Shown piece by piece: positions 32,182 to 55,149 of a DNA stretch of 64,000 nucleotides. The stretch is taken from the NCBI GenBank assembly GCA_949878435.1, contig CATLAK010000006.1, forward strand, positions 1-64,000, read 5' to 3'. Source of the stretch: an uncultured Lachnospiraceae bacterium. Lineage in GTDB: Bacteria > Bacillota > Clostridia > Lachnospirales > Lachnospiraceae. Positions within the stretch are counted from its first letter, which is position 1. Each line of letters opens with the position of its first letter. Below the pieces are notes generated by a model. That model was not told the origin of the DNA, made no database searches, and saw only the letters and a list, made by a program, of their open reading frames with translations. Both the position numbers and the translations under genes were made by a program.

Positions 32182-32552
32182 CCAATGTCATTAAGTTAAG
32201 AGGGGAGCGCGGGCAGGACAGCAGTGACACGGGGCAGAGAGCAGACCAGGTACAGGGGGAGCGCATATCCTATTGTTTCAAGCCTCCGCGAAAAATCGGT
32301 AATTTCACTTGCAGAATGTTGAGTCCCTAGGGTGAAATCGCCATGGATGGCGATTTCAGGAGTCGCGCGGCACGGATGCCGCTGACTCCGACCCGTCCGC
32401 ATTGAAACACCTAAATACATTCTGTTAGTGAAATCCGATTTTGAGAGGAGACTTGAAACAATAGGATATGCGCTCCCCCTGTACCTGGTCTGCTCTCCGC
32501 CCCGTGTCACTGCTGTCCTGCCCGCACTCCCCTCTTAACTTAATGACATTGG
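32182..32552. repeat. Palindromic repeat element, copy A (371 bp, MITE-like)
   Basis: Two 101-bp arms (32182-32282 and 32452-32552) are inverted repeats differing at only 2 positions; complementarity continues imperfectly inward through TTTCACT-CAGAATG. The central part has hairpins GAAATCGCCAT/ATGGCGATTTC (32334-32357) and GGAGTC..GCGGCA-cgga-TGCCGC..GACTCC (32359-32389). TTCATCCC flanks both sides directly (32174-32181 and 32553-32560), as an 8-bp target duplication would. The core matches copies B (54817-55149) and C (43937-44074). No transposase is encoded. Confidence 0.85.
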
Positions 32553-32584
32553 TTCATCCCCTTTCCTTCCTCTCCCATTTGTTT

Positions 32585-32590
32585 TATAAT
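32585..32590 (+). promoter_or_regulatory. -10 box of the LUD-domain gene
   Basis: TATAAT 43 bases before the start codon. The -35 region (near 32562, CTTTCC) is poor, and lies only about 10 bp from the palindromic element. Confidence 0.45.
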
Positions 32591-32632
32591 AAGAATATCT
32601 TTTTAAAATACCTTATATTCAGGAGGAATTAT

Positions 32633-33268
32633 ATGACACCTAAGCAGCTTGCTTTTCAAACCGCAGTTAATGGAATCATCCCCAAACTTGCTTGCCGAAA
32701 TATGGGAGGTTATTTTTTTGAAAACAGTGCTTCCTGCGTGAGCGCAATCACTGACCTTATGGAAGATGGCTCCAGCATCAGCTGGGGCGGCAGCGAATCC
32801 ATAAAGGAATGCGGACTTATGGATGCCATCAAGTCCGGCAATTATATCCTAATTGACCGCCTATCCGCCAAAACACCGGAAGAAGGCAGAGAACTGTATG
32901 CCAAGACAGTTCTGTCCGACTACTACTTAATGAGCAGCAATGCCATTACATATGACGGCGAACTGATCAATATCGATGGAAACGGGAATCGCGCTGCATG
33001 CCTTATCCACGGTCCAAAATACGTCCTTGTGATAGTCGGCATGAACAAACTGGTTTCTGACGTAGAATCAGGTTATAAGAGAGTCCGCAATCTGGCATCC
33101 CCGGCTAACGCCAAGCGTTTGGGGCGGAACACCCCATGTTTCCATACCGGAAAGTGCGGCGATTGTCTTTCAGATGAATGTATGTGCAGCCATATAGTCG
33201 TGACAAGACGGTGCAGCATCCCCGGAAGAATTAAGATCTTTTTCGTGGCTGAAGAGCTTGGTTACTAA
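32633..33268 (+). CDS. LUD-domain (DUF162, LutC-like) protein
   Basis: 211 residues from ATG 32633 with AGGAGG upstream; the longer in-frame extension would run into the palindromic element and is discarded. Motifs SWGGSESIKECGLMDAI and GPKYVLVIVGMNKLV belong to the LUD fold of lactate-utilisation proteins. Stand-alone members of this size are common in clostridia and not shown to act on lactate. Cysteines near the C-terminus (CFHTGKCGDCLSDECMC) suggest a metal site. The stop codon is the first three bases of a 37-bp tandem repeat. Confidence 0.85.
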   Translation: MTPKQLAFQTAVNGIIPKLACRNMGGYFFENSASCVSAITDLMEDGSSISWGGSESIKECGLMDAIKSGNYILIDRLSAKTPEEGRELYAKTVLSDYYLMSSNAITYDGELINIDGNGNRAACLIHGPKYVLVIVGMNKLVSDVESGYKRVRNLASPANAKRLGRNTPCFHTGKCGDCLSDECMCSHIVVTRRCSIPGRIKIFFVAEELGY

Positions 33269-33376
33269 CAAACGTTGCCACGCTGCGCGAGACAACTTAT
33301 TGTAACAAACGCTGCCACGCTGCGCGAGACAACTTATTGTAACAAACGCTGTCACGCCGCGCGAGACAGTTTATTG
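33266..33376. repeat. Three tandem 37-bp repeats
   Basis: Units TAACAAACGyTGCCACGCTG + CGCGAGACAACTTATTG at 33266-33302, 33303-33339 and 33340-33376. Units 1 and 2 differ at one base; unit 3 has about five changes. Each unit has an internal inverted pairing (GTTG...CAAC). There are no spacers, so this is not CRISPR. Confidence 0.85.
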
Positions 33377-33378
33377 CA

Positions 33379-33436
33379 GCAAAACAGGTATTGCTATCCT
33401 AATTATTTTAAGAAGCAATACCTGCTTTTGTTTTTT
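33379..33436. terminator. Bidirectional terminator between the LUD gene and glyA
   Basis: CAGGTATTGCT (33385-33395) / AGCAATACCTG (33414-33424) stem with T-rich flank TTTTGTTTTTT on the plus side and AAAA (T on the minus) on the other. Confidence 0.75.
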
Positions 33437-33484
33437 CCGTAAAATCGAAGCAGCGGATACTTACGCTTTCCCTGCTAGCAAGCC

Positions 33485-34723
33485 TTAAATCAACGGATAC
33501 TTGTCTGTCAATTTCTGTACGATTGCCCTAGCTTCAGGGATTTTTTCCTCTCCGCCCTTGACAATCATCGCAATGGCTTCCGCAATCTGATCCATATCCT
33601 CTGCATTCATGCCCCTGGAGGTAACCGCAGGTGTACCAAGGCGCACCCCGCTGGTTACAAAAGGTGATTTAGGGTCATTGGGAATCGTGTTCTTGTTTGC
33701 CGTAATATGCGCCTCGTCCAGCATCTTCTCAACAGCTTTTCCCGTAAGGTCATAAGGCGTAAGATCCAGCAGCATCAGATGATTGTCTGTACCGCCTGAT
33801 ACGATTTTCATCTCTCTATCCATAAGTCCCTTACACAGCGCCTGGGCATTGTCAATGATGTTCTTCTGGTAGGTTTTAAACTCATCTGAAAGCGCTTCTT
33901 TGAAGCAGACAGCCTTTGCCGCAATCACATGCATCAGCGGACCTCCCTGGGTTCCCGGGAAGATTGCCTTGTTAAAGTTATATTTCTCTGCCGCCTCTTT
34001 ATTTGCAAGAATCAGACCGCCTCTAGGACCCCTCAGTGTCTTATGGGTCGTCGTTGTGACTACGTCTGCATAAGGAATCGGGCTGGGGTGAAGACCTGCT
34101 GCCACAAGCCCGGCAATATGCGCCATATCTACCATAAGTGCCGCACCGACCTCATCTGCCACTTCTCTGAACTTTTTAAAGTCAATCGTTCTTGCATAAG
34201 CGGAAGCCCCTGCAATAATTAATTTGGGTCTGCACTCTAATGCTATGTTTCTAAGCTTATCGTAATCAATGAATCCTTCGTCATTTACCCCGTAAGGAAC
34301 GATTTTAAAATACTTACCGGAGATATTGACCGGACTTCCGTGGGTCAAATGACCGCCATGATCTAAATTCATTCCCATGATCGTATCGCCAGGGCTGCAG
34401 ATTGCAAACTGGACTGCCAGATTCGCCTGTGCCCCTGAATGAGGCTGCACATTTGCATAGTCGCAGCCAAAAAGTTCTTTTGCTCTTTCAATTGCAAGAT
34501 TTTCCACCACATCAACACACTGGCATCCTCCATAATAACGTTTTCCCGGATAGCCTTCTGCATATTTATTTGTAAGTGGACTTCCCATGGCAGCCATTAC
34601 TGCCTTGCTCACCCAATTTTCTGATGCAATCAATTCAATGTGGCTGTTTTGCCTCTCCTGTTCATCCACAATCGCCTGCGCAATTTCGGGATCAACATTT
34701 TTTACCTCGTCAAATGAATACAT
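33485..34723 (-). CDS. glyA: Serine hydroxymethyltransferase
   Basis: 412 residues, the usual length. It converts serine and tetrahydrofolate to glycine and methylenetetrahydrofolate, the one-carbon donor used by ThyA. Marks are the N-terminal [11 protein letters not shown], the substrate-binding [28 protein letters not shown], and the PLP lysine in [15 protein letters not shown]. The ATG follows AGGAGGAAGAATT. It is monocistronic and ends at a bidirectional terminator. Confidence 0.97.
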
Positions 34724-34901
34724 AATTCTTCCTCCTTCTTATTTATAAATTAATATAACATAAACCTTTTTGAAAAAAAACCAATTTCTGAAAAAACTCC
34801 TAAGTAAACCTTAAGATTTACGGAATCGCATAAAAAAACTTTACTCCTGCAAAAAATACTGCTAAAATAGGAAAAGATTTCAGGGAGACAAAAGAAAATA
34901 T

Positions 34902-35876
34902 ATGTATTATATCATTGTAAATCCCGCCTCTAAATCGGGACGAGGCGCTAAGATATGGGCAAAAATACAGCCTGTTTTAGAGCAGCAAAAAATCCCATAT
35001 GAAGTTTTCTTTTCCCAGGAAGCCGGACATGTCATCAAATTAACTGCTGATTTATCTGCTTCCTTATTAAGTGCGGACTCTGATTTCATTTTAAAGCTGA
35101 TTGTGCTTGGCGGTGACGGAACCTTGAATGAAGTTCTTCAGGGAATTGCCGATTTTGACCGGGTACAGGTAGGATATATCCCTACCGGTTCAAGCAATGA
35201 CATGGCAAGAGATTTAAGGCTGCCTAAAGATCCCTGCGAAGTACTTAAGAACATTTTATCCTGTAAGGAGCCTATGCGAATGGATTTGGGGTGCCTTACA
35301 TATGAGCAGCCTCCGGAAAAGTTATCCAGGTACTGTGGGAGCAATCCGGCTTCCACACGTTTTTTTTCCGTCAGCAGCGGCATTGGGTTTGATGCCGCCG
35401 TATGCGAAGAGGCGCTTGCCTCTAAATTTAAAAATATATTAAATAAGATAGGGCTCGGCAAGCTTACTTACCTTGGAATCGCGCTCAAACAGCTTATTAA
35501 AGCAAAGAAAGTCACCTGCACGATTACATTAGATGACCAGAAAAAGATTCATCTTCCCAAGTTTTTATTTGTCGCCTGCATGATTCATCAATATGAGGGC
35601 GGCGGATTCAAATTCTGTCCCGGCGCTGATTCCGGTGATGGGCTGATTGATGTCTGTGCTGTAGGAAATATTCCCAAATGGCTGATTCTTTTGGCGCTTC
35701 CCACAGCATTTTCAGGAAAGCATTACCGCTTTCACGGCATCGATCACTATATGGCGCGTAAGATACGGCTGGAAACATCCATTCCGCTGTGGGTTCACAC
35801 CGATGGGGAGGTTACGATGAAATGCTGCTCCATCAGCCTTAGCTGTGAACAGCAAAAAATACAGTTTCTGCTATGA
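34902..35876 (+). CDS. Diacylglycerol kinase-family lipid kinase
   Basis: 324 residues. The catalytic GGDGTLNEVL (near 68-77), substrate loop PTGSSNDMARDL and C-terminal DGEV fit the DagK/YegS/BmrU family, soluble enzymes that phosphorylate diacylglycerol at the membrane and feed phosphatidic acid synthesis. Its 3' end lies 46 bp before the start of the PAP2 phosphatase gene on the same strand, so opposing kinase and phosphatase activities are encoded together. Confidence 0.9.
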   Translation: MYYIIVNPASKSGRGAKIWAKIQPVLEQQKIPYEVFFSQEAGHVIKLTADLSASLLSADSDFILKLIVLGGDGTLNEVLQGIADFDRVQVGYIPTGSSNDMARDLRLPKDPCEVLKNILSCKEPMRMDLGCLTYEQPPEKLSRYCGSNPASTRFFSVSSGIGFDAAVCEEALASKFKNILNKIGLGKLTYLGIALKQLIKAKKVTCTITLDDQKKIHLPKFLFVACMIHQYEGGGFKFCPGADSGDGLIDVCAVGNIPKWLILLALPTAFSGKHYRFHGIDHYMARKIRLETSIPLWVHTDGEVTMKCCSISLSCEQQKIQFLL

Positions 35877-35922
35877 ATGTCAAGACCGCGTCAGCAATAT
35901 GATTTATTATGAGGAGAAAGTT

Positions 35923-36600
35923 ATGAAAAAGTTTTATGGAAAATACAAACATGCTATCCCGCTTATGATTTATGCGGTGATTTACTGCACTTGGTTCGCT
36001 TATCTGGAAAAAAAGGTTATACATCCTGCAACCATTATACATGTGGGCATTGATGACCTGATTCCTTTTTGGGAAGTTTTTGTGATTCCTTATTTTTTGT
36101 GGTTTGCTTATGTTTCTGCGGTTGTGATGTACTGCTTTTTTAAAAGCAAACAAGAATATTATAAGACTTGCGTATTCCTTTTTACCGGAATGACCATTTT
36201 CTTGATTATTTCCACCCTTTGGCCAAATGGGCATCATCTTCGCCCTGCCGTAATGCCGAGGGAAAACATATTTACCGCCATGATTGCACATTTGTACAGA
36301 GCGGACACCCCTACCAATTTGTGGCCCAGCATACATGTTTACAATTCAATCGGCGCCCACCTTGCAGTTGTGCACAACGATCAGCTTGCAAAGAATAAGC
36401 TTCTTCGCACAGGCTCCTTGACTCTATGTATCTTAATCATACTTTCAACGGTATTTATCAAACAGCATTCCATGTTTGATGTGATTACCGCCTTTGTAAT
36501 GGCAGCAGTTATGTATGTCGTAGTCTATCAGACCGATATCGTCGCTTCCTGCCAGACCTACCGCTCCAATTGGAAACGCCACAGAATCCGTCAAGTCTAA
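35923..36600 (+). CDS. PAP2-family membrane phosphatase/phosphotransferase
   Basis: 225 residues from ATG 35923 (GAGGAGAAAGTT upstream). About five to six membrane segments with PAP2 motifs: SIHVYNSIG (S-x-x-H, central motif) and KQHSMFDV (H-x3-D, last motif). The layout resembles inositolphosphotransferase Aur1/Ipt1-like bacterial proteins. It probably dephosphorylates a lipid phosphate at the outer membrane face, in balance with the kinase encoded just upstream. Confidence 0.85.
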   Translation: MKKFYGKYKHAIPLMIYAVIYCTWFAYLEKKVIHPATIIHVGIDDLIPFWEVFVIPYFLWFAYVSAVVMYCFFKSKQEYYKTCVFLFTGMTIFLIISTLWPNGHHLRPAVMPRENIFTAMIAHLYRADTPTNLWPSIHVYNSIGAHLAVVHNDQLAKNKLLRTGSLTLCILIILSTVFIKQHSMFDVITAFVMAAVMYVVVYQTDIVASCQTYRSNWKRHRIRQV

Positions 36601-36614
36601 TTTATTTATAAGCA

Positions 36615-36651
36615 AAAAGGCAGCGTCAGCTGCCTTTTGGGGGTTTCTTTT
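36615..36651. terminator. Terminator between the PAP2 gene and the glycosyltransferase gene
   Basis: AAAAGGCAGC-gtca-GCTGCCTTTT (36615-36638) followed by GGGGGTTTCTTTT; it serves the plus-strand gene and, with weaker T content, the convergent minus-strand gene. Confidence 0.8.
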
Positions 36652-36655
36652 ACAA

Positions 36656-37681
36656 TCAATTGAAATTAAAGAATCTCTGACAGATCTTATACCCTTCCAC
36701 CGAAATCTTTCTACCGCCTTTGCCGGGCAGATTCATACAATGCCCCAAAAGTCCGTACCGCAATTTCCGATATAAAATCCAATCTTTCTTTTTAAGGTAA
36801 TCCCACAGTTCTTTCTTTTTTTGCAGGTTTTCTTTTGTGTCCGAGCGGATAAGTAAGATAGAAGACACCGTAGTGATAATATCCAGATAACTCAACATGT
36901 AGTGATACATCTTCTTGTTCGCTGTTATCTTATTTCTATTCTCCACTATATAATCGATCATCAATTTGTTTACCTTAATCTGCTGATCGATCCTTCCGAT
37001 CATAACCTCCTCATTGACCGACTGATCCGACCTTCCAATATAGTAACGGTAAAAATTCACATCCAGATAATACATATTTTTTACATAAGGAAGGGGTTCA
37101 AACACATAAAGATTGTCCACATAAAAAGTGTGCTCCGGGAGTCTTAACCCACATTCCCTAAGCAGCTTGGTTCTGAATATAACAGAATGCATCAAAATAT
37201 ACTGTCCTTTATGGAAATGTTTGATTTCTTCCCATGTGAACATCTGATTTACCGGCATCGCATGCTTATAGCGCATCACCTTGTGCCGGTCTTGTCCGAC
37301 CTTCTCATACACAAAATTGCTGACCAGCATGTCCAATACCTTTTCTCCGCCCACCAGGCTCCGCAAGGTATCCAGAATCTGCATATATGCCTCCTGCTTT
37401 ACCCAATCGTCACTGTCAACTACCTTAAAGTACAGACCGGATGCACTGTCAATCCCTGCATTGACTGCCGACCCATGTCCTCCGTTTTCCTTGTGTATGA
37501 CCCGTATAATGGAAGGATGCTCTGCCGCATACCTGTCGGCAATTGCTGCCGTCTCATCCGTGGATCCGTCATCCACTATGATGATCTCCACATCCTCTCC
37601 GCCTTTTAAAAGTGATTCCACACATTTTTCCATATATGCTGCTGAATTATAGCAGGGCACTGCAAATGATAATAATTTCAT
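36656..37681 (-). CDS. Family 2 glycosyltransferase
   Basis: 341 residues. GT-A domain with SFAVPCYNSAAYM, IIVDDGSTDET, ENGGHGSAVNAG and the metal-binding VDSDDW. The C-terminal 120 residues are basic and lack membrane segments, so it acts at the cytoplasmic face. The acceptor cannot be told. It is a single gene on the minus strand, similar in outline to the one at 49389-50213. Confidence 0.88.
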   Translation of the reverse strand: MKLLSFAVPCYNSAAYMEKCVESLLKGGEDVEIIIVDDGSTDETAAIADRYAAEHPSIIRVIHKENGGHGSAVNAGIDSASGLYFKVVDSDDWVKQEAYMQILDTLRSLVGGEKVLDMLVSNFVYEKVGQDRHKVMRYKHAMPVNQMFTWEEIKHFHKGQYILMHSVIFRTKLLRECGLRLPEHTFYVDNLYVFEPLPYVKNMYYLDVNFYRYYIGRSDQSVNEEVMIGRIDQQIKVNKLMIDYIVENRNKITANKKMYHYMLSYLDIITTVSSILLIRSDTKENLQKKKELWDYLKKKDWILYRKLRYGLLGHCMNLPGKGGRKISVEGYKICQRFFNFN

Positions 37682-37772
37682 TTTTACTTACTCCTGTTTA
37701 TGCTTCTTTTTGATTTCAGTTTGACTTATATATTTATCTACCTTCCTATCATACCCATTTTATCAAAAAGAA

Positions 37773-39503
37773 TCAACTTAAGAAATTCTGAACATAAACA
37801 TGGTAAGCCGAGGGAATTGGATATTTATCCTTTATTTCGTCCGGTTCCGCAAAAATCATGCTGCTCTGGCTTCCCTTTTTCGCCAGTTCATCTACCTTGA
37901 CTGAATAGCCGATCATATGCCACTCCTTATGCGTGAAAATATGTCTGCTCTTCTCTAGTTCTTCAACCTTAAGCACCGAAAGTCCCTGTTTTTTCAGATA
38001 AGCAATCACCTGTCTTTTTGTAAGATGCCCCTCCAGACACGGAAATTCATACATTCCTGCCAAGAGCCCCTTTCCCGGTCTTTGCATCAATGCTGCCCTC
38101 GTCTCGTCCCGAATGACAAGAACCGTCTTTTCTTCAATTGTCCTCGGTTTCTTAGGCGTTTTATATGGAAACTCCGATTCTCTTCCCATAAGATGGGCAT
38201 CACAGCATTTTTCCCATGGACACTCGGTACACCGAGGCGCCCCGGCAGGCATACATATCATTGCCCCTAATTCCATCAGTGCCTGATTAAAATCCCCGGA
38301 CCGTTCCTGGGGCATGACTAGGCGGAGTTCTTCCTCTATTTCTGTGCGCACCCCTGACTTTGAAATGTCCCTGTCGTCCCCTCTTAATCTGGATAACACA
38401 CGCAGCACGTTTCCATCCACCGCCGGAACTCGCTTTCCATAGGCAATAGAACTGACAGCGCCTGCCGTATAGCTTCCGATTCCCGGTAGTTTAATCAGTT
38501 CTTCATACGCCTCAGGCATCTTTCCTTCGTATTTCTCCATTATCACCTGCGCTGCCTTTTTCAAATTTCTTACCCTGTTATAGTAGCCAAGCCCCTCCCA
38601 GAGCTTTAGCAATTCCTCTTCCCCTGCCTCTGCCAGTGCCGGAATGTCCGGCAATGCCTTCATAAAACGGTCATAATACGGCTTTACTGCCTCCACTCTG
38701 GTTTGCTGGAGCATGATTTCCGAAACCCATACATGATATGGTGTGGCGTCTTCCCGCCAGGGAAGAATCCGTCTTCCCTTATCATACCATTGCATCAGGG
38801 AATCTGCTGCCAGTTCTATCTCTGAAAGTCTCACCGGCACAGGGCTGTTCACCTTCATGGAATCCGGTGTCACTTTACAGTCATAGGCAAGCACTTCTAC
38901 TCCCGCCTGCCTTGCCCGAAGGAGCGCATCGGCAAATTCCGGATGGGTGCTCCGATTGGGTGTAAAAAACATTACATCTCCCATCTGAATCACAAAAAGG
39001 ATATACGCCTTATATCCCTCCTTTACTGCTTTGGCAAGTTCATTTATATGTTTGACTGCCCGCTGGGAAGGCGCATCCGGAAACAGCACTACATTCTCCT
39101 GCTCCAGGGTAACCCCTTTTACCTCTATGAAAATCTTGTCCTCCGGCGTCTCCACATAAAAGTCGAAGCGAGAACTTTCATAGGTCGTCTCTGGTTTCAA
39201 AAAAGTGATATTTTCAAACAAGCCTCCTCTAAGGAGCCACTCCTCCACAGCCTTATTAGGCGCCTGGGAATCCATATTGATGATTCTCTCTTTCTTTTTC
39301 ACTGCCACCAGGTCATAGGCAGTGCTTCTTTCAGGATTGCTGCTCTTATTCAAAAACACTTGGGCATTTTCCGTCAGAAGTTCACGGCATCTGCCTGTAT
39401 TCTTGACATGGACCTTTTCCGTCCTCCCTACTATATTCACATAGGCAATAAATCTGTTCGGACGGCTTTCAAACCGCCCTTCCCAAATATCATTATAATT
39501 CAT
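37773..39503 (-). CDS. sfsA-mutY: SfsA-MutY fusion: nuclease domain joined to A/G-specific adenine glycosylase with Nudix-like tail
   Basis: 576 residues. Residues 1-225 are SfsA (KNTGRCRELL, SRFDFYVETP, FIEVKGVTLE, FPDAPSQRAVKH), a DNA-binding nuclease family. Residues 232-440 are MutY: WVSEIMLQQTRV with catalytic Glu262, HhH LPGIGSYTAGA at 339-349, catalytic Asp363 in PAVDGNV, and an Fe-S cluster motif C417, C425, C428, C433/434. The first spacing is 7 residues where E. coli has 6. Residues about 455-576 are the MutT-like 8-oxoG-recognition domain. MutY removes adenine opposite 8-oxoguanine. There is no stop, frame change or ribosome site between the parts. It starts 3 bp after the nucleotidase gene. 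Confidence 0.92.
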   Translation of the reverse strand: MNYNDIWEGRFESRPNRFIAYVNIVGRTEKVHVKNTGRCRELLTENAQVFLNKSSNPERSTAYDLVAVKKKERIINMDSQAPNKAVEEWLLRGGLFENITFLKPETTYESSRFDFYVETPEDKIFIEVKGVTLEQENVVLFPDAPSQRAVKHINELAKAVKEGYKAYILFVIQMGDVMFFTPNRSTHPEFADALLRARQAGVEVLAYDCKVTPDSMKVNSPVPVRLSEIELAADSLMQWYDKGRRILPWREDATPYHVWVSEIMLQQTRVEAVKPYYDRFMKALPDIPALAEAGEEELLKLWEGLGYYNRVRNLKKAAQVIMEKYEGKMPEAYEELIKLPGIGSYTAGAVSSIAYGKRVPAVDGNVLRVLSRLRGDDRDISKSGVRTEIEEELRLVMPQERSGDFNQALMELGAMICMPAGAPRCTECPWEKCCDAHLMGRESEFPYKTPKKPRTIEEKTVLVIRDETRAALMQRPGKGLLAGMYEFPCLEGHLTKRQVIAYLKKQGLSVLKVEELEKSRHIFTHKEWHMIGYSVKVDELAKKGSQSSMIFAEPDEIKDKYPIPSAYHVYVQNFLS

Positions 39504-39506
39504 CTC

Positions 39507-40439
39507 TCATGGATCTCTCTTATGTTCTAATTTATCATGTTGCTTATAGGGTACTCTCGCCGACGGCACTACCTCCGATGCCGGCGTCGTATGTACTGCC
39601 TGATCGTCAAAAAAGATATGCGCGCCAAACGCTTTTAAAACATCCCGCTTTGTAATTCCTCCCAAAAAGAATGCCTCATCAATCCTCACGTTCCACGCCC
39701 GCAGCGTCCTGATTACACGCTCATGGGCAGGCGCGCTTCTTGCCGTAACAAGGGCGGTACGTATAGGCGCCTGTTCCGGCGGAAATTCATTCTGAATATC
39801 TGAGAGCGTCTTTAAAAACTTGGCAAAGGGTCCCTGATTGAGAGGGTGCTCTGCCTTAAGCCGCTCATTCTCCTCGAAAGCTTCCAATCCCTTTTCCCGG
39901 TAAATCTGCTCCGACTCGTCAGAAAACAATACTGCATCACCATCAAATGCAATCCTGATCTGGGAGATTTTCTTATGGCTATTATACGTCTTGATTTCGT
40001 CGCAGCAGATGATTCCCGCCGCAATTCCACAGTCAATAGCAGACTGCACATCCGCCTCATCCGCAGATAAATACAAATCTGTATGAAATGCCTCCAGATA
40101 AGGCGTAAGGGATGCACCGCTGGCAAGTACAGCCCTTGAGATATTAAGTCCGTAGTGAGCAATTGCATTGAACACACGTAAGGATGTGTCGGGACTGTTG
40201 TGGGACATAATAATTACCTCCACCCGTCCCTCCTGCCCGGGAATCTTATTAATATTGAGCAGCGCCTCTATCAACCGGAACCCATTTCCCGGCAAAAGAA
40301 GCTCCTTCTCATGCTCCACCTGATATCTGCAATAAGCCTCCACCCCCTGTGAACGGAAAATCTCATTTTCCGCAGTCAGGTCAAACAAAGCCCTTGAGGA
40401 CACTCCTATGACCAGCCTGTTTTCCAAATCATACGCCAT
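39507..40439 (-). CDS. Cytosolic 5'-nucleotidase (NT5C1-like, PF06189 type)
   Basis: 310 residues from ATG 40439 (GGAGGTTATT upstream). Motifs LVIGVSSRALFDL, IIMSHNSPDTS, LYLSADEADVQSA, IAFDGDAVLFSDE (the HAD-like Asp region) and FLGGITKRDVLKAF match the cN-I family of 5'-nucleotidases. It would release nucleosides from nucleoside monophosphates in the cytoplasm. Coupled to the SfsA-MutY gene, which starts 3 bp downstream. Confidence 0.85.
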   Translation of the reverse strand: MAYDLENRLVIGVSSRALFDLTAENEIFRSQGVEAYCRYQVEHEKELLLPGNGFRLIEALLNINKIPGQEGRVEVIIMSHNSPDTSLRVFNAIAHYGLNISRAVLASGASLTPYLEAFHTDLYLSADEADVQSAIDCGIAAGIICCDEIKTYNSHKKISQIRIAFDGDAVLFSDESEQIYREKGLEAFEENERLKAEHPLNQGPFAKFLKTLSDIQNEFPPEQAPIRTALVTARSAPAHERVIRTLRAWNVRIDEAFFLGGITKRDVLKAFGAHIFFDDQAVHTTPASEVVPSARVPYKQHDKLEHKRDP

Positions 40440-40548
40440 AATAACCTCCATCCTTTCCTCTTTGCACCGCGGCTATGGAACCTCCCGGAAATTATTCATG
40501 CTTAAAGAACTATGACGGGAAAACTTTATTCATAGAACGTCCATTATT

Positions 40549-41121
40549 TTATCTCATTCGGCTGCACTCATACTTTTGAAAGGTCAAAAGGCAGGTGCGC
40601 AGTTCTTCCAGTCGATCCTGCGTATCGCCTTCCTCGATTTCTACATCCACAGCCATCGCCATGGTGTTAATCATATCGTCGGTAATCCGATGCTGCAGCG
40701 CTGAAAGTATATTGAGACGCTCTTCATATGTCCCGGCATCCAGAAATTCCAGTACCAGCGGGTCGATATTTAATTCTTCCGGCTGCTCATCAGCCTGTGC
40801 CGAAATTCTTTCGGCGGTATCTGCCGCAGCTTCCCTGTCTGACGGCTCACCTTCATTGCTCTTCATCTTTGCAGCCGGTTCAGCGATCAGCTCATTTTGA
40901 AGTTCAAAACGATATTCTGAAACGGCTCCTTCATACTTACTTTTATCTATCTTTTCCATGAACATAGACAAGGGTCTTGCATAGACCTCATATGTTCCGT
41001 AAAGCGCCTGATAGACCACCAGTTCTTCATCTGTCTCCGTATGCCTTGCAAGGGTCACGATTCTGTAAAGGTTTCCTTTAAAATGCCTGTAAATCTGTCC
41101 AGGCAATGGGATATTTGACAT
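40549..41121 (-). CDS. DUF1653-domain protein
   Basis: 190 residues. The first 75 (GQIYRHFKGNLYRIV, VVYQALYGTYEVYARPLSMF) are a DUF1653 domain of unknown function, found alone or attached to other proteins. The rest is acidic and helical, with a linker near 85-115. Start ATG after GGAGGAGGCT. It is a lone gene. Confidence 0.85.
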   Translation of the reverse strand: MSNIPLPGQIYRHFKGNLYRIVTLARHTETDEELVVYQALYGTYEVYARPLSMFMEKIDKSKYEGAVSEYRFELQNELIAEPAAKMKSNEGEPSDREAAADTAERISAQADEQPEELNIDPLVLEFLDAGTYEERLNILSALQHRITDDMINTMAMAVDVEIEEGDTQDRLEELRTCLLTFQKYECSRMR

Positions 41122-41218
41122 AGCCTCCTCCTTCTGCCGCGTAAATATGCAGTTCTTCTCTTCCGATTACACGGCTACATCAATTATAATCCTTCCCCCA
41201 GTCCTTGTCATTCTTCTT

Positions 41219-41605: not shown

Positions 41606-41700
41606 ACCATTCCTCCTAAATCGTTTTGCTTGCTTTTGATATCTTTATTATAAAAAATGTTGTGTCCAATAAACCTCCCTCAAAAAAAAATTTTATACTA

Positions 41701-43936: not shown

Positions 43937-44074
43937 ACATTTTCAAACAGCTAAATGCATTCTGTTAGTGAAATCCGATTCTTGAGAAAAGACTTGAAAC
44001 GATATAATACACTGTCGCCTGTGCCTAAGTCCGCTTCCTGCCCCGAGTCACTGCCACCTTGCCCGCGCCGGTCT
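43937..44074. repeat. Palindromic repeat element, copy C (truncated half)
   Basis: Matches the right half of copy A: TTTCAAACAGCTAAATGCA, then TTCTGTTAGTGAAATCCGATT and GAGAAAAGACTTGAAAC, followed by arm-like sequence related to but diverged from copy A's (CCCCGAGTCACTGCCACCTTGCC vs copy A CCCCGTGTCACTGC). The left arm is missing, so no palindrome remains. It fills most of the gap 43889-44200 between divergent genes; otherwise I see only an AT-rich stretch (44140-44185) before the DUF362 gene. Confidence 0.75.
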
Positions 44075-44200
44075 GTCGCCTACGCCTGTGCTGCTGTCAT
44101 GCCCTTGCAGGCGGAACTGCCACAAATTCCTTTTCAAATTTTCAGCAGAGTGCTAAAATATAACAATATTAAAACGCATTATAACTGAAAGGAAATTTAT

Positions 44201-47957: not shown

Positions 47958-48042
47958 GGTTTCCTCCATTCCGAAGTGTCACAAATTCTTCCTTTTTCCT
48001 TATTCATCTAGTCTTGATATTCTTTGCACATTTTATCCCTGT

Positions 48043-48369
48043 TTACTTCAGCTTCTTGACAAGTTCTATCGTCTCATCCATAATCTTATCATTTCCATTT
48101 AAGACCTCTTCCACCACACAGGTTTCTAAATGTTCCTTCAACACAATATAGCCAAATCCCTGCAAAGCGCTTTCCACCGCCGCGACCTGCGTGAGAATAT
48201 CTCCGCAATAGCGGTTCTCCTCCAGCATCCTGCCAATTCCATTCAGCTGACCAATCATGCGGTTCAGCCTGTTCTTTAGATTTTTATGTTGTGCTGCACT
48301 TCTGGGCGTATGCTTCGTATGGCAGCAATTACCTGTGTTTCCCTCTTGTTGATCATTCGCTTCAAACAT
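48043..48369 (-). CDS. csoR: Copper-sensing repressor CsoR
   Basis: 108 residues from ATG 48369 (GGAGGT 7 bases before it; the preceding ATG abuts the ribosome site). DUF156 fold of three helices: LKNRLNRMIGQLNGIGRMLEENRYCGDIL, then LKEHLETCV. The Cys-His-Cys copper ligands are those in RYCGD and EHLETC. A His/Cys-rich N-terminal tail (NCCHTKH) is extra. It represses the csoR-copA operon until Cu(I) binds. copA begins 86 bp downstream. Confidence 0.95.
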   Translation of the reverse strand: MFEANDQQEGNTGNCCHTKHTPRSAAQHKNLKNRLNRMIGQLNGIGRMLEENRYCGDILTQVAAVESALQGFGYIVLKEHLETCVVEEVLNGNDKIMDETIELVKKLK

Positions 48370-48420
48370 ATTCATACCTCCTGTACCCTATGGATTATTT
48401 TCGGAATACCACTTCTTGCA

Positions 48421-48479
48421 AATACCCCTCATGGGTATTTTACATTTTATATAATATACCCCATATGGGTATATGTCAA
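48421..48479 (-). promoter_or_regulatory. csoR-copA promoter with two CsoR operators
   Basis: Minus strand TTGACA (48474-48479), 17 bases, TATTAT. The dyad TATACCCATATGGGGTATA (48455-48473) fills the spacer, and a second AATACCCATGAGGGGTATT (48421-48439) lies just downstream. Both match the G-tract dyad of CsoR sites. Confidence 0.88.
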
Positions 48480-48503
48480 GTGTTTATCAATGACTATATG
48501 CCA

Positions 48504-48541
48504 TAAAAAATGCTGCCAACCCTCTCAAGCTGACAGCATTT
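48504..48541 (-). terminator. Terminator of the heptad-repeat gene
   Basis: AAATGCTG / CAGCATTT stem with a 17-20 base loop, followed by TTTTTT on the minus strand. Confidence 0.75.
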
Positions 48542-48581
48542 ACTCTTCTCTCATTTTCATATTGGTCTCTTCACCTCTTCA

Positions 48582-49151
48582 TTAGGAACCCGCCCCTACA
48601 GCCGTTTTCCCATTATAAACTATGAACCGGCTTATTTTCCTGGCATTTTCCTGCGCCAGATCATAGGTCTTAGATATTTCAGTCTGCAGTGCAAACTCCA
48701 TCGTATCCATCTTGTCACGCACGTCTATCACAGTCAAACGTACTGCTTCGATTTTACCGCCCAGTTCCATATGCATATCATCCATCTTCGTGCGCATGTC
48801 ATCTATTTCTTCGTGAATTCCATCTATTTCTTTATGGATTCCACTTATCTCTTCATGGATTCCATCTATCTCTTCATGGATTCCATTTATCTCTTCATGG
48901 ATTCCATTTATCTCTTCATGGATTCCATTTATCTCTTCATGGATTCCATTTATCTCTTCATGGATTCCATCTATCTCTTCATGGATTCCATTTATCTCTT
49001 CATGGATTCCATTTATCTCTTCATGGATTCCATTTATCTCTTCATGGATTCCATCTATCTCTTCATGAATTCCACGTATCTCTCCATGCATTTCACTAAT
49101 TTCAGCATGCATATCATCCAGCCGGCTTAAAATCAATTCCGTATCCGTCAT
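48582..49151 (-). CDS. Long heptad-repeat coiled-coil protein
   Basis: 189 residues from ATG 49151 (GGAGGAAACAGG upstream). Residues about 13-130 are 17 contiguous heptads, mostly IHEEI(N/D/S)G, with Ile at both core positions, favouring a parallel trimer. The short C-terminal region (GGKIEAVRLTVIDVRDKMD...) is also helical. No membrane segment. The DNA is a tandem 21-bp repeat (48790-49085), so copy number may vary by slippage without breaking frame. Function unknown. Confidence 0.85.
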   Translation of the reverse strand: MTDTELILSRLDDMHAEISEMHGEIRGIHEEIDGIHEEINGIHEEINGIHEEINGIHEEIDGIHEEINGIHEEINGIHEEINGIHEEINGIHEEIDGIHEEISGIHKEIDGIHEEIDDMRTKMDDMHMELGGKIEAVRLTVIDVRDKMDTMEFALQTEISKTYDLAQENARKISRFIVYNGKTAVGAGS

Positions 49152-49388
49152 CCTGTTTCCTCCTTTCTCTCCGTACTTCTTTTTCATCCCCGAAATCTTT
49201 ACTTAAATCAAATTCCCAGATGCAAACAGTAAGGTATCTATCTCGATCCATTGCTTTCGGACATAAAAAAGTGTAGTTCCATCTTATCGGAAAAAAGATT
49301 ACATGTCAATCCATTTTAAGCTTTTAAAATTATAAAAATTCTGAAAAATTTCTGATGCTAAAAATCCTTTTTTCTATAGCTTACTCGT

Positions 49389-50213
49389 CTAAGCTGATTT
49401 TATCTTCTTGATTTTGTCATGGGCAAAAGATAGGTAAAACATTTGTATGCGCATTCTGTTTTCATTATATAAATCAATCGATTTATACAAATCTTTATAA
49501 TAATCAAACAAAATCCTTTTGGTCCGAATCGTCTGCTGAAATGTAATCTGCGTATCCACAAGGCTTCCTTTTGTCTTCACATAATAGTAAAGCGGCTTTG
49601 TTACGACACCCACCTTTCCCACGTATTGCAGATATTCAAGATTGAATCTGAAATCTTCGCACCAATCCAATTCCGGCGAGCAGGATAATCCAAACTTTTT
49701 TACGATATCCGCTTTAAAAAATTTATTCCACAGCACACCGAAATAAAAGTTTGCCGGTGCCTTCATCATATATTCAGCATATTTCATCCGTGTAATTACT
49801 TTTCCGCCCTCAATATGTCCTTTTGTAAAAAAACGTCTTCCCCTCACCCTGTAATAGTCGGAAATCACCATATCGCATCCATAAGTGACTGCTGTTTTCA
49901 CAAATTCCTCTGTCGCCTGCTTTGCCAGCCAGTCGTCACCGTCTACAAACTGAAGGAACGCTCCTTTTGCCTCCTGCATTCCTCTGTTCCTGCTGTCTGA
50001 AACCCCGCTGTTTGCCTTTCTTATATGCTTAAACCGCTCATCTTTAGCAGCATACTTCTCAATCACTTTTCCCGTGTGATCCGTGCTTCCGTCATCTATA
50101 ACTATAATTTCAATATTCCTATAACTTTGATTCTGGATGCTGCGCAGACATCTTTCAATGGTTCTCTCACCGTTGTAAACCGGTACAATTATGCTCACCA
50201 AAGGCTCTTCCAT
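49389..50213 (-). CDS. Family 2 glycosyltransferase
   Basis: 274 residues: SIIVPVYNGERTIERCL, IIVIDDGSTDHTG, NSGVSDSRNRGM, FVDGDDW metal motif, and a C-terminal helical region. Similar class to the 36656-37681 enzyme but with a shorter C-terminus, resembling EpsJ-like transferases. Cytoplasmic face. Acceptor unknown. Single gene, divergent from the glycolipid genes at 50441. Confidence 0.88.
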   Translation of the reverse strand: MEEPLVSIIVPVYNGERTIERCLRSIQNQSYRNIEIIVIDDGSTDHTGKVIEKYAAKDERFKHIRKANSGVSDSRNRGMQEAKGAFLQFVDGDDWLAKQATEEFVKTAVTYGCDMVISDYYRVRGRRFFTKGHIEGGKVITRMKYAEYMMKAPANFYFGVLWNKFFKADIVKKFGLSCSPELDWCEDFRFNLEYLQYVGKVGVVTKPLYYYVKTKGSLVDTQITFQQTIRTKRILFDYYKDLYKSIDLYNENRMRIQMFYLSFAHDKIKKIKSA

Positions 50214-50440
50214 TCAACCTCTACACCCTTCCATTGTATATACTTTTTTTAGAAACCTTATAACGCATTATATCACTTGAAAAATAAAAAAATGTAAACA
50301 AATCAGAATATTTTTATTAAATCTTCTTCATCCGTTTGTTGTGGCATAAAATGCTTTTTTCTGATATAGTATATTACGCAAAGCAGGCAGAGACATTTGT
50401 CATATCTCTCCCGAAATGCATATGAAGGAGTATTTTTATC

Positions 50441-51598
50441 ATGAAAGTATTGATATTGTCATGCAGTACTGGCGGCGGTCACAACGCTGCCGGCAAAGCA
50501 GTAAAAGAACGTCTTGAATATGAAGGGCATGAGGCTGTCCTTTTGGATCCCTTTACCTTGTCCAGCGAGCGCACCGCCCGGATCGTGGGCAATGCCTACA
50601 TAAAAATCGCCAGTCATATTCCAGGTTTTTTCGGATTTTTATACAAACTTGGAGGCGCTGTCAGCTCTTTCCGGCACAAGTCACCCGTTTACTATGCCAA
50701 CACCTTAATGGTAAAACATCTGAAACGTTTCCTCTCAGAAAATCACTTTGATGCCATTGTGACGCCTCACTTATTTCCGGCGGAAATGATAACTTGTATG
50801 AAACGCAGAAATATGGAAATTCCTCCTGCCATTGCAATCGCCACCGACTATACCTGCATTCCCTTTTGGGAAGAGACGCAATGTGATTACTACATCCTCC
50901 CCCATCCTGACCTCATAACAGAAAATACGGACCGAGGACTGCCGGAGGATAAACTATATCCTATCGGTATTCCAGTGGGAATGGCATTTTCAGAAAAGTC
51001 AGATAAATCCAAAGCAAAGGAAAGGCTTCATCTGCCCGCCGATAAACCGGTGTTCTTAATTATGAGCGGCAGTATGGGGTTTGGAAAAATGCATTTGTTT
51101 GTGTTTGAGCTGACAAGAAAACTTATTCACGACGAACAATTGATTATTATCTGCGGCAACAATCAAAAAATGTACCGTATCTTAAGGCGAACCTATAAAC
51201 GGAATAAAAATGTGCATGTCACCGGCTATACCGACCATGTGTCTGAATATATGGATGCCAGCGATGTTATCTTTACCAAACCCGGAGGACTTACCTCTAC
51301 AGAAGCCCTTGTTAAAAATATTCCTATCGTGCACACAGCCGCCATTCCCGGATGTGAAACCAAGAACAGCGAATTTTTTGCCGCCAGAGGACTTTCCCTT
51401 GCTTCAGAGCATATTCACACCCAGGTTTCCCAAGGAATAACACTTGCGGAGAATAAAGAAATACGAGCCGCTATGATCTCCACCCAAAGAAAATACGCAT
51501 TTCCAAATGCCTCCGCCGATCTCGTAAAAATACTCGCCGAAATCACAAAAGAGCGCCTCCCCCAAAAGGAGGATGCAGGAAAGGAGCCTATGCGATGA
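50441..51598 (+). CDS. MGDG synthase/UgtP-like glycosyltransferase (GT28)
   Basis: 385 residues. N-terminal LILSCSTGGGHNAAGKAV is the MGDG-synthase N-domain signature; the C-terminal domain has IMSGSMGFGKM, IICGNNQKMY, FTKPGGLTSTEAL and PIPGCE-type sugar-nucleotide contacts. Relatives transfer glucose or galactose from UDP-sugar to diacylglycerol, making membrane glycolipids or the lipoteichoic acid anchor. Followed with a 4-bp ATGA overlap by a PlsY-type acyltransferase, which supports lipid synthesis. Confidence 0.88.
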   Translation: MKVLILSCSTGGGHNAAGKAVKERLEYEGHEAVLLDPFTLSSERTARIVGNAYIKIASHIPGFFGFLYKLGGAVSSFRHKSPVYYANTLMVKHLKRFLSENHFDAIVTPHLFPAEMITCMKRRNMEIPPAIAIATDYTCIPFWEETQCDYYILPHPDLITENTDRGLPEDKLYPIGIPVGMAFSEKSDKSKAKERLHLPADKPVFLIMSGSMGFGKMHLFVFELTRKLIHDEQLIIICGNNQKMYRILRRTYKRNKNVHVTGYTDHVSEYMDASDVIFTKPGGLTSTEALVKNIPIVHTAAIPGCETKNSEFFAARGLSLASEHIHTQVSQGITLAENKEIRAAMISTQRKYAFPNASADLVKILAEITKERLPQKEDAGKEPMR

Positions 51599-52227
51599 AA
51601 GAATTATCATGGATGCCTTATTTACTTTGGTCCTTAATCGGCTATCTGTCCGGCAGTGTTCTGTATGGATATCTGATTCCCAAATATTTTAATCATCTTG
51701 ACGTTTGCAAAATAAGCGATGACGGCAACCCCGGCACGGCAAACGCTTACAAATATGCCGGCTTTTGGACTGGAACCGCCGTCCTCCTGTGTGAACTTCT
51801 GAAAGCCTTTTTTCCGGTATTCCTTGCTGCCCGCATGATTGATTCCGCAAGGCTCCCCTTTGCATTCGTCATGGCATCGCCTGTAGCCGGTCATGCTTTT
51901 TCCGCTTTTTTCAAAGGCAAAGGCGGCAAAGCCATTGCCGCCTCCTTCGGCGTCTTGCTGGCTCTGTTCCCAAATCTGTTTCCCTTTGCCGCACTCGCCC
52001 TGTTTTATATTCTGTTTTCAACGGTAATCATTATTTCACCGCACCTGTTCCGCTCTATTATAACCTTTCTTCTATTCACAGTGACAGTTTTCATTAAAGT
52101 ATCCGTCCCGTCCATCAGACTGGGCTGCGGACTGATTTCTGCCATCACAATCAAAAAACATTTGAAAAGCTTTAACGGCGAAGCTCTTAAAGTCCGCATG
52201 ATCTGGCAACGGAAGTTTTCTGGTTGA
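51595..52227 (+). CDS. plsY: PlsY-family glycerol-3-phosphate acyltransferase-like protein
   Basis: 210 residues, about five to seven membrane segments. PlsY motifs: SGSVLYGYLI, DDGNPGTANAYKYAG (phosphate loop), and GHAFSAFFKGKGGKA. PlsY acylates glycerol-3-phosphate with acyl-phosphate. The C-terminus beyond the core is longer and basic. Translationally coupled to the GT28 gene. Since a canonical plsY usually exists elsewhere with plsX partners, this may be a paralogue with a related role. Confidence 0.8.
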   Translation: MKELSWMPYLLWSLIGYLSGSVLYGYLIPKYFNHLDVCKISDDGNPGTANAYKYAGFWTGTAVLLCELLKAFFPVFLAARMIDSARLPFAFVMASPVAGHAFSAFFKGKGGKAIAASFGVLLALFPNLFPFAALALFYILFSTVIIISPHLFRSIITFLLFTVTVFIKVSVPSIRLGCGLISAITIKKHLKSFNGEALKVRMIWQRKFSG

Positions 52228-52280
52228 CCTCAAACATGCGCTGCCTCCATACAGCTTTGCAAAAATCGCATATTATCAAA

Positions 52281-52727
52281 TTAGACCAGCATCTCTCCCA
52301 CAATCTTATTGACCAGGCTGCCGTCCGCTCTGCCCTTCACTCTCGGCATAAGTTCCTTCATTACTTTTCCTTTATCTTTTCCCGAAGGCTCTGCAATGCC
52401 AAGGGTATCTAAGACCTCCCTGACCTGTACGCGGATCTCCTCCTCGCTCATTTCCTCTGGTGCAAATTCCTGATAAACGGCAATCCTGATCTCGCAGGCT
52501 TCTTTAATATCCTTCCGATCTTCCGGCGCCAGCTCCATGGTCTCCTTGGTCTGCTTGATTTCCTTTTTGACCACCTCATATTCCTCTGCCTGGGTTAAAT
52601 CCTCCCGCTTATCAATCGCCTTATTCTTAAGCGCCGAAAGAAGCATGGAAAGCGCATCCTTTCTGTCCTTATTTTTGTTCTTCATAGCCTCCATCATCTG
52701 TGAACGCACATCATCAATCATACTCAT
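52281..52727 (-). CDS. yqeY: GatB/YqeY-domain protein
   Basis: 148 residues, the family's usual size: MIDDVRSQMMEAMKNKNKDRKDALSMLLSALKN, then EDRKDIKEACEIRIAVYQEFAPEEMSEEEI, GKVMKELMPRVKGRADGSLVNKIV. It resembles the tail domain of the amidotransferase subunit GatB and is thought to bind tRNA. Short spacing (39 bp) to holA on the same strand. Confidence 0.92.
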   Translation of the reverse strand: MSMIDDVRSQMMEAMKNKNKDRKDALSMLLSALKNKAIDKREDLTQAEEYEVVKKEIKQTKETMELAPEDRKDIKEACEIRIAVYQEFAPEEMSEEEIRVQVREVLDTLGIAEPSGKDKGKVMKELMPRVKGRADGSLVNKIVGEMLV

Positions 52728-52766
52728 TTTTCATTCCATCCTTTCTTTTATAGATATTATCTGTCC

Positions 52767-53750
52767 TCACCCTCCCGTACTGCTGTACCGGATGATCAAC
52801 ATTTCCACGCTCATATTGTCATTGAGCCGCCCCGTCTTGATGGCTTCCTCCGCCCCCACACATGCCTCCACCGCATCCCGTATCTCCTGTGTCTTAAAGC
52901 GTGAAGCCTGAACCACATATTTTCCCGCAACAAACCCCGGCAGTCCTGTCTTCTCTCCTATGGTTTTGTTGGAATACCCCTTCCCTTTCAGTTCCTTTAC
53001 CTGCAAAAGAAGGTTAAACTGCCTGGCAATCAAAAACAAGATCCGCATGGGCGGCTCTTTTTGTGCCAGCAGTTCATAGTAAAGTTCCAGCGCCTTTTTT
53101 TGCTTTTTATCCGCTATGGCGCTTACCATATCAAAAATATGATTGCCAATTCTTTTGGTGCAGATTTCTTCAATATCTGCTTCCGTAATGGCTTCCTTAT
53201 CCAGACAATAGCAAAATAGCTTCTCCGTCTCTTTCCGGATATTTTCCATGTCTGTCCCAGTCTTTTCCAGAAGAAACTGCAAAGCGTTCTCCGATATTTT
53301 CTTGTTCTCCTTTTTTACCATCCCCAAAATCCACTTTTTCAGCGTACTTTCATCCTGAACAGCAAATTCCACCGCACAGCCCTTTGAGGATGCCATTTTG
53401 TAAAGACGGCTTCTTTTATCCACCTCTGTCTCTACAAATAAGAAGAACGTAGTCTCCGGCAGCGCGGGCAGATACTCTGCAATCTGCTCTCCGCCGCTCT
53501 TAAACAAACCGCTGTTCTCTAGCACGATCAAACGCCTGTCCGCAAAAAACGGAAGCGTCTCCGCCTGATCTATGACTTCCCCCAAAGAAATATCCTTCCC
53601 CTCGTAGTAATGGCAGTTCATCGTATCGTCACCGATCATCGCCTCTTTGAGCCTGTCCCGGTACTGCTTTCTTAAATATGCTTCCGCACCGTAGAGCAGA
53701 TAAATGTGATTAAATTGTCCTGATTTTATATCCTGCGTCAACCGCTGCAT
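52767..53750 (-). CDS. holA: DNA polymerase III delta subunit
   Basis: 327 residues from ATG 53750 (AGGAAAGAAT upstream). Starts MQRLTQDIKSG, with HIYLLYGAEAYLRKQYRDRL as the inactive Walker A region, then DAETLPFF-like text (VIDQAETLPFFADRRLIVLE), domain III with LLFLIARQFNLLLQVKEL. HolA is the clamp loader's wrench subunit. Usual length and neighbour: comEC lies nearby, as in many Firmicutes where comEC precedes holA. Confidence 0.92.
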   Translation of the reverse strand: MQRLTQDIKSGQFNHIYLLYGAEAYLRKQYRDRLKEAMIGDDTMNCHYYEGKDISLGEVIDQAETLPFFADRRLIVLENSGLFKSGGEQIAEYLPALPETTFFLFVETEVDKRSRLYKMASSKGCAVEFAVQDESTLKKWILGMVKKENKKISENALQFLLEKTGTDMENIRKETEKLFCYCLDKEAITEADIEEICTKRIGNHIFDMVSAIADKKQKKALELYYELLAQKEPPMRILFLIARQFNLLLQVKELKGKGYSNKTIGEKTGLPGFVAGKYVVQASRFKTQEIRDAVEACVGAEEAIKTGRLNDNMSVEMLIIRYSSTGG

Positions 53751-53853
53751 ATTCTTTCCTGCTTCTGTGTAATAATTATTATAAGTATACCACAACAAAG
53801 CAGATGATGCTAAAATAAATTAAAAGGATTACAAAAAAGAAAGAAGGTATAAA

Positions 53854-54777
53854 ATGGCTAAGCGGATATTAGATTGTTATGCTTCGGATTTTGAAGGATT
53901 TTCAAAGATGGATTTGCTGGAATCCATTGGAAAAAGCGAGGGACGGGTAATCGCCTGCGAGACCATCGGTACGGTGCAGCCCATGCTGGTGGATGTAACG
54001 AATGCAGAGTTCGTATCGGCGATGGGCGCTGATCTTCTGCTCCTTAACATGTTTGATGTGCTAAATCCGTGCATCCGCGGACTTCCAGACGGAAAGCCGG
54101 AGGATACCGTGCGGCTGCTCAAGCAGTTGACGGGGCGCCCCATCGGAATCAATTTAGAACCGGTAGAGGAAGGGAAAGAAGGCGAAACTTCCGATCTGTG
54201 GAAAATGTCCAACGGACGGCGGGCAACTTTGGAAAATGCACAGCGGGCATATGAAATGGGTGTAAATATGATTCTTTTAACCGGCAACCCGGGAATGGGC
54301 GTCAGCAATGAAGGAATTGAAAAGACCTTATCCCTGTACCGTGAGAAGCTGGGCGACAAAATGATTTTGGCAGCCGGAAAAATGCATGCAGCAGGCATAC
54401 TTACAGAAGCGGCGGAGTCAATCATAACAAAAGATGATGTCAAACGCTTCCGGAAGGCGGGTGCCGATATTCTGCTTTTCCCTGCACCTGCCACAGTACC
54501 GGGCATCACGGTGGAATATATCCGAGAGCTGGTAAGTTATGCTCATTCCCTTGGAGCGCTGACGATTACTGCAATTGGGACTTCCCAGGAGGGCGCTGAT
54601 ATCAATACAATACGGCAGATTGCATTGATGTGTAAAATGACTGGGACGGATATTCATCATCTAGGAGATGCGGGGTATGCGGGGATGTCATTGTCGGAAA
54701 ATATACAGGCGTATTCTATTGCGATACGGGGGGTTCGGCATACTTATCATAGGATGGCGGCTTCTATACATCGTTAA
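53854..54777 (+). CDS. Uncharacterised TIM-barrel-like protein (DUF7916-type)
   Basis: 307 residues. Repeated beta-alpha pattern with PIGINLEPV, GVNMILLTGNPGMGVSN, GADILLFPAPATVPGI and TDIHHLGDAGYAG. It resembles PEP-mutase or phosphosugar-type barrels and is often annotated as haloacid dehalogenase-like by inheritance; no HAD motif is present. It has its own ribosome site (GAAGG). The downstream palindromic element starts 40 bp after the stop. Confidence 0.7.
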   Translation: MAKRILDCYASDFEGFSKMDLLESIGKSEGRVIACETIGTVQPMLVDVTNAEFVSAMGADLLLLNMFDVLNPCIRGLPDGKPEDTVRLLKQLTGRPIGINLEPVEEGKEGETSDLWKMSNGRRATLENAQRAYEMGVNMILLTGNPGMGVSNEGIEKTLSLYREKLGDKMILAAGKMHAAGILTEAAESIITKDDVKRFRKAGADILLFPAPATVPGITVEYIRELVSYAHSLGALTITAIGTSQEGADINTIRQIALMCKMTGTDIHHLGDAGYAGMSLSENIQAYSIAIRGVRHTYHRMAASIHR

Positions 54778-54816
54778 AGTGTGCTCTTGGTTGTTAAAAA
54801 AGGGGATCTGTTGAAC

Positions 54817-55149
54817 GGTCAGTTAGTTGAGGAACGGCGCCGGCGGGGGATATAAATCTTGCGGAGGGCGGACCCACAGGCGTCACACCTTATGTTTTCA
54901 AGTCTCTTCTTAAAATCGGATTTCACTAACAGAATGTGTTTATGTGTTTCAAGACGACCAGGGCGGCATCCGTGCCGCTTGGCTCCTAAAATCGCCATCC
55001 ATGGCAATTTTACCCTAGGTGGCTCAACATTCTGTAAGTGAAATTGCCGACTTTTCGCAAAGACTTGAAAACATAAGGTGTGACGCCTGTGGGTCCGCCC
55101 TCCGCAAGATTTATATCCCCCGCCGGCGCCGTTCCTCAACTAACTGACC
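54817..55149. repeat. Palindromic repeat element, copy B (333 bp, MITE-like)
   Basis: Arms 54817-54902 and 55064-55149 are perfect inverted repeats over 86 bp. The interior (161 bp) is the inverted counterpart of copy A's: GTTAGTGAAATCCGATTTTAA, CTTACAGAATGTTGAGCCAC, GCCATGGATGGCGATTTTAGG and the hairpin GCGGCA-cgga-TGCCGC. Arms differ from copy A's except for the outermost and innermost ends (GGTCAGTTAGTTGAGG; CTTGAAAAC). No target duplication is evident. It supplies the stop codon of comEC. Confidence 0.85.

Follow-up and report, generated by a model that had tools for sequence, protein, structure and literature searches.

A MITE-like family with copy-specific, self-matched arms around the TwoAYGGAY core in an uncultured Lachnospiraceae bacterium

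The window analyzed here is a stretch of 64,000 nucleotides (nt) from an uncultured Lachnospiraceae bacterium (GenBank assembly GCA_949878435.1, contig CATLAK010000006.1, positions 1 to 64,000). It carries three copies, termed A, B, and C, of a palindromic element in which two long complementary arms flank a core matching the TwoAYGGAY RNA family (Rfam RF01731). Copy A, a type-I element of 369 bp on the plus strand, runs from 32183 to 32551 (CAATG...CATTG) and is delimited by its end matches, its arms, and an empty site. The palindrome itself spans 32182 to 32552, with a left arm at 32182 to 32282 and a right arm at 32452 to 32552 (both plus strand); the first base of the left arm and the last base of the right arm belong to the target duplication. 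Within the core at 32286 to 32448 (plus strand, 82.2 bits) lie hairpin 1 (32334 to 32357, plus strand, loop AUGGAU) and hairpin 2 (32367 to 32382, plus strand, loop ACGGAU). Copy B is on the minus strand. Its whole palindrome occupies 54817 to 55149 and retains remnants of type-I ends, and its core lies at 54906 to 55060 (minus strand, 56.5 bits). Both cores exceed the RF01731 gathering score of 43 bits.

An earlier note, made from the sequence letters, had given arm matches of 99/101 for A and 86/86 for B and a shared core with two hairpins. Measured again, the arms agreed (101 nt with two mismatches in A, 86/86 in B), and both hairpins were located, with A and B carrying the same core in opposite orientation. 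The predicted folding energies of sequence windows containing A and B were -294 and -257 kcal/mol, respectively. The length and identity of the arms in A and B are not attributable to chance. Copy C is truncated and consists of the 3' half of the core, the right arm, and a type-II end at 44104 to 44123 with three mismatches. It had been recognized as a remnant but was ended at 44074; the type-II end carries it to 44123 (43937 to 44123, plus strand). An RF01731 search of copy C at an E value of ≤1 returned no match.

Copy A is an insertion, and its transposition is supported. In the closest genome, G008, the sequences corresponding to window positions 30052 to 32182 and 32552 to 36600 are contiguous (identity of 95% and 92%, respectively) and overlap by exactly 10 bp. 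This clean empty site holds a single copy of GTTCATCCCC, the target-site duplication found to the left (32173 to 32182) and right (32552 to 32561) of A. The direct repeat around A had been put at 8 bp; the repeat stands, but its length is 10 bp, with the element proper at 32183 to 32551. A search for an insertion sequence (IS) with ends like those of A located an element of the IS4 family within the same genome, with ends CAATGTCATTTAGATAAG and a 10-bp duplication, GCCCGCCGAC. Type-I ends have 16 of 18 end bases in common with this element; the likeness stops there, with none further inward. We infer that the element spans contigs C13 and C33 because of the duplication and the overlapping gene ends. 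Its transposase gene is split into two overlapping frames, which align with successive parts of the IS4-family model NF033592 (97.5 and 81.7 bits). Each frame alone is under the NF033592 cut-off, and the PF01609 match is above the PF01609 cut-off.

We scanned for the exact end of A, CAATGTCATTAAGTTAAG, and obtained at least 118 stretches. Two loci among the matches listed were checked for a gene, one in Aquimarina and one in Allobaculum, and both open reading frames (ORFs) contain PF01609. The Aquimarina ORF is an IS4-family transposase (157.6 bits against an NCBIfam cut-off of 115), and the Allobaculum ORF (263 amino acids) scores slightly under that cut-off at 109.5 bits. Among the matches listed from other bacteria were 37 end pairs, of which 16 have a 10-bp duplication matching at 9 or more of 10 positions; five of these 16 are 1467 to 1691 bp long and eleven are 123 to 346 bp long. 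Since end sequence and duplication length agree, an IS4-family transposase presumably moved the type-I copies. Copy A is short, belongs to a family with 54 full copies measured in the genome, and has no transposase gene; it is best filed as a miniature inverted-repeat transposable element (MITE) with IS4-type ends.

BLAST found 40 near-full core copies in the window's own genome, and the Rfam model found 53 matches; 54 distinct full copies were measurable in the stretches we fetched. Typing these by recurrent ends in at least one arm, with five mismatches tolerated (4 of 540 shuffles matched), gave 12 copies of type I, 8 of type II, and 34 of neither type (“other”). The type-II end is GTAACAGTTCAGCCTGCAAG, and such an element is usually 342 bp long. 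Its duplication is exact at locus L407 (8 bp), measures 9 bp at locus L411 (around a core-less element of 96 bp), and is imperfect elsewhere. Core-less derivatives (L072 at G000:C5:84423-84594, L411, and L418) have two arms with a short loop between them. Five genomes of the genus together hold 106 full copies (108 were gathered and two duplicates removed). At an E value of ≤0.001, RF01731 was found in 17 of 37 genus genomes and in 45 of 299 genomes sampled across the family, with matches above the cut-off in 16 and 43, respectively; 14 control genomes gave no RF01731 match. A MITE family around this orphan RNA core is well supported.

Neighboring copies less than 200 bp apart in the own genome were divergent (-,+) in all six pairs (L014, L015, L019, L024, L057, and L064). 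Many such pairs, uncounted, also occur in G341, G339, and G019, and there is at least one tandem exception, in G205. A conserved sequence between the divergent copies was considered and rejected, the apparent flank similarity being merely the adjoining copy. Copies or their flanks also lie at contig ends in G008 (e.g., C1, C14, C36, C37, C76, and C85). Assemblies seem to break at the palindromes, and copy counts from drafts are probably too low.

Arm statistics cover the 99 copies whose arms measure 40 nt or more. Within copies, the two arms mismatched at 240 of 8973 aligned positions (2.7%), with 35 further gap columns. Between copies, arms are similar next to the core and grow less alike with distance from it. 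Among the 66 “other” arms, 26 lack a relative at an E value of ≤1e-3, 22 share inner parts only, and 18 share the outer end. The claim that outer arms differ between copies therefore holds for most copies but not for A, whose arms are shared by five other copies that are 84 to 92% identical to it over the whole element. Likewise, the family had been described as a MITE in reverse, constant inside and variable at its ends. This describes 34 of the 54 own copies but not the 20 with recurrent ends (types I and II), and it fails for the subfamily of A, the arms there being alike. Copy-specific, self-matched arms are real, and a mechanism that keeps them matched is probable. In the own genome, C is enriched in the 3' arm (42% C and 21% G; more C than G in 51 of 53 copies), so that on either strand a G-rich 5' arm is read first.

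We propose that A, B, and C are copies of a nonautonomous MITE family, each forming one long hairpin. At its center would sit the TwoAYGGAY core, which measures about 170 bp and includes two ANGGA-loop hairpins, between arms of mostly 50 to 190 bp. Type-I copies would be moved by the IS4-family transposase and type-II copies by a second, different one. After insertion, the arms would drift yet stay complementary because replication forks would occasionally change templates within the hairpin, so that one arm is copied onto the other. Such switching would flip the core as well, and the palindrome would be prone to deletion. The core may descend from a CsrA-binding RNA. According to two papers, replication template switching in inverted repeats predicts matched arms, paired multibase changes, and spacer inversion (PMC8794818 and PMC8604942), and homogenization is known for long repeats as well (PMC8604942). 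DNA template switching inside the hairpin is the likely, rather than demonstrated, keeper of the matched arms.

Alternatively, the arms may match because selection acts on a transcribed RNA hairpin, compensation proceeding one base at a time via G:U intermediates. The core is a curated RNA family, and two AYGGAY motifs are present in 49 of the 54 own cores (one in the other 5; both loops are present in A). Core pairs also lean this way, with 70 G:U against 41 A:C in 100 copies from the five same-genus genomes, counted before the two duplicates were removed and mostly at three pairs. In the arms, however, mismatches on the core strand comprised 94 G:U and 104 A:C, and this lack of a G:U preference favors DNA-level arm-to-arm copying over RNA selection. 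A cross-genus core alignment, built from 36 of 39 loci on the strand given by the model, likewise gave no preference, at 24 G:U against 21 A:C, although strands may be mixed there because the model is near-palindromic. Almost perfect pairing across 100 bp also exceeds what an RNA seems to need. We find RNA selection on the arms improbable.

A second alternative is that the outer arms were acquired at insertion. The element would enter host hairpins such as terminators, and the host stem plus its palindromic duplication would become a copy-specific arm. The 16 IS4-type targets we rebuilt from other genomes were indeed more hairpin-prone than local random sites (median of -15.6 versus -10.7 kcal/mol, p=0.007), yet just 3 of them were within the top 5%, and the empty site of A folds weakly (-4.2 kcal/mol). 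Stop codons often adjoin copies and some element-free sites hold short hairpins, e.g., L273 for a copy in G013; against this, inner arms are common to many copies. The search for the corresponding sites in G008 took in 22 of the 34 “other” copies, and eight element-free sites were examined. Four of them (L017, L281+, L281-, and L284-) looked like an inverted duplication of host sequence and were considered as host capture of the arms. This was rejected, because their junctions show microhomology of 2, 3, 5, and 4 bp, respectively, and are now read as deletion scars. G008 appears to have lost these four copies by microhomology deletion, with a flank identity of 72 to 89%. Their arms are still well matched, which speaks for arm copying. 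Three of the four have arm mismatches of 1/91, 1/52, and 1/87, and the longest (190/197 nt) has 9 mismatches and 7 gap columns. The other four sites (L022, L023, L286, and L288) are readable neither as capture nor as deletion. Because the four sites resembling acquisition, of the eight examined, fit deletion scars, DNA-based correction is favored over acquisition at insertion, which we consider unlikely.

It could also be that the family is a mixture of transposon pieces, its core captured repeatedly by unrelated end pairs, so that arms differ by origin and need no correction. The ends fall into at least two types whose duplications differ in length, and the 26 of 66 “other” arms lacking a relative would fit this picture. 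However, the remaining 40 share inner parts or the outer end too, and type-I and type-II arms are similar near the core. These shared parts and like inner arms imply that many arms have a common ancestry, and we give repeated capture little credence.

As for the core, a published prediction has TwoAYGGAY bind CsrA (PMC4333381), and Weinberg et al. (PMC2864571) list human gut, gamma-Proteobacteria, and Clostridiales as sources of the motif; the organism of the window is presumably a gut clostridium. The Escherichia coli CsrA consensus is RUACARGGAUGU, as quoted in PMC6692469. All 54 own cores contain CA.GGATG at least once and 42 contain it twice; the reverse strand never carries it, and ACA.GGATGT was present in none of the 54. 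In the cross-genus loci, CA.GGATG is about equally frequent on either strand. AYGGAY motifs are fewer in the G009 and G019 copies and in the cross-genus loci. In the family sample, csrA (PF02599) was found in 43 of 45 TwoAYGGAY-positive genomes versus 110 of 254 negative genomes (Fisher test, 4e-12, uncorrected for the shared ancestry of the genomes). This co-occurrence is in line with the published prediction. A bolder idea sees in TwoAYGGAY a mobile CsrA-binding module. As a hairpin transposon that serves as its own template, it would carry CsrA sites through genomes, and the “RNA covariation” of its stems, at least in the arms, would have been written by DNA template switching and not by RNA selection. 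We offer this tentatively, as a doubtful possibility.

Taken together, we believe the account of a MITE hairpin family with IS4-type mobilization, arm copying, and a CsrA-derived core to be reasonably probable. Shared sites add support for the arm copying. At L022/L316 and L025/L327, the core has the opposite orientation with respect to its flanks, and L058/L325 differ twice in their outermost 22 arm bases, both times with a paired change in the other arm. Three sites shared between G000 and G013 gave paired to single columns of 62:1, 69:7, and 34:8, with 35, 41, and 13 gap columns among the paired ones; L289/L327 (the L025 site) was left out of this count, the G013 copy having only 8 matched arm bases.

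Several observations weigh against this account. Among 60 random pairs of nonorthologous copies, the median of paired to single columns was 61.5:4, much like the shared sites, and the arm identity of L022/L316 and L058/L325 resembles that of such random pairs. Independent insertions are therefore possible at these two sites, and the proof of correction in situ is incomplete. L010/L314 is the one pair more alike than any of the 60 random ones, which may be explained by both copies being type I. For two copies that G008 also carries, single-arm changes occupy 12 and 2 columns, and paired changes are absent. On the side of mobility, no clean target duplication was seen in the flanks of copy B, and only 4 of 98 copies overall score ≥7 for a target duplication (control rate of 0.2%). 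The IS4-family transposase of the own genome, split over two frames, may be inactive. Within the genus, csrA shows no contrast, being present in 15 of the 17 genomes with TwoAYGGAY and in 18 of the 20 without it, and a search of the window's own genome (86% complete) found no csrA, so the link to CsrA is conjectural for the window. Finally, the position of the copies relative to genes is biased in a way that neutral MITE movement does not predict. In 95 copies with gene context (gene calls by a simple hexamer model, with the same numbers after removal of the two duplicates), a stop codon faces the right arm in 54, within 40 bp in 42 (median of 19), and the left arm in 31, within 40 bp in 9. 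This contrast of 42 to 9 (p=3e-6, the related genomes not being independent) was 22 to 3 in the own genome and 10 to 5 in G013. Many copies thus lie directly 3' of genes, mostly antisense. Insertion into terminator-like hairpins could possibly produce this bias, as could intolerance of sense CsrA sites in messages.

The elements resemble several known systems in part. They have the same core as TwoAYGGAY RNA, above the gathering score in A and B and with two AYGGAY-type loops, but RF01731 is treated as an RNA. In the TwoAYGGAY literature searched, with few subscription papers and sources available in part, mobility, target duplications, and long copy-specific arms are not described. Like bacterial MITEs with IS4-family ends, the elements are short and noncoding and have terminal inverted repeats, a 10-bp duplication, and a related IS in the genome. 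Unlike those MITEs, they have repeats of about 100 bp with only about 18 end bases common to the IS, a structured core, and, in most copies, no recurrent ends. With the CsrA-sequestering RNAs of the CsrB/RsmZ type, they have in common ANGGA in hairpin loops, csrA co-occurrence in the taxonomic family sample, and the prediction in PMC4333381. In contrast to those RNAs, they are dispersed in dozens of copies, the own cores lack the ACA..UGU frame, and their transcription and CsrA binding are putative. Compared with described cases of inverted-repeat homogenization, this is a multicopy mobile family with arms of mostly 50 to 190 bp.

The window holds other repeats as well. A 21-bp unit forms a tandem array of about 440 bp at 48708 to 49148, and three head-to-tail copies of a 37-bp unit lie at 33266 to 33376, directly after the ORF downstream of copy A. 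The ORFs at 26258 to 26469 and 28606 to 28828 have start regions that are 74% alike over 109 bp, and the 74 bp upstream are 89% alike; this pair is probably a local duplication.

With these elements, an orphan Rfam family gains a physical carrier as well as a partner protein that can be tested, and an orphan RNA is tied to mobile DNA. With dozens of long natural palindromes, a single genome also becomes a place to measure correction between arms. Should DNA hairpin copying be able to produce stem covariation, covariation alone would be weaker evidence of a functional RNA.

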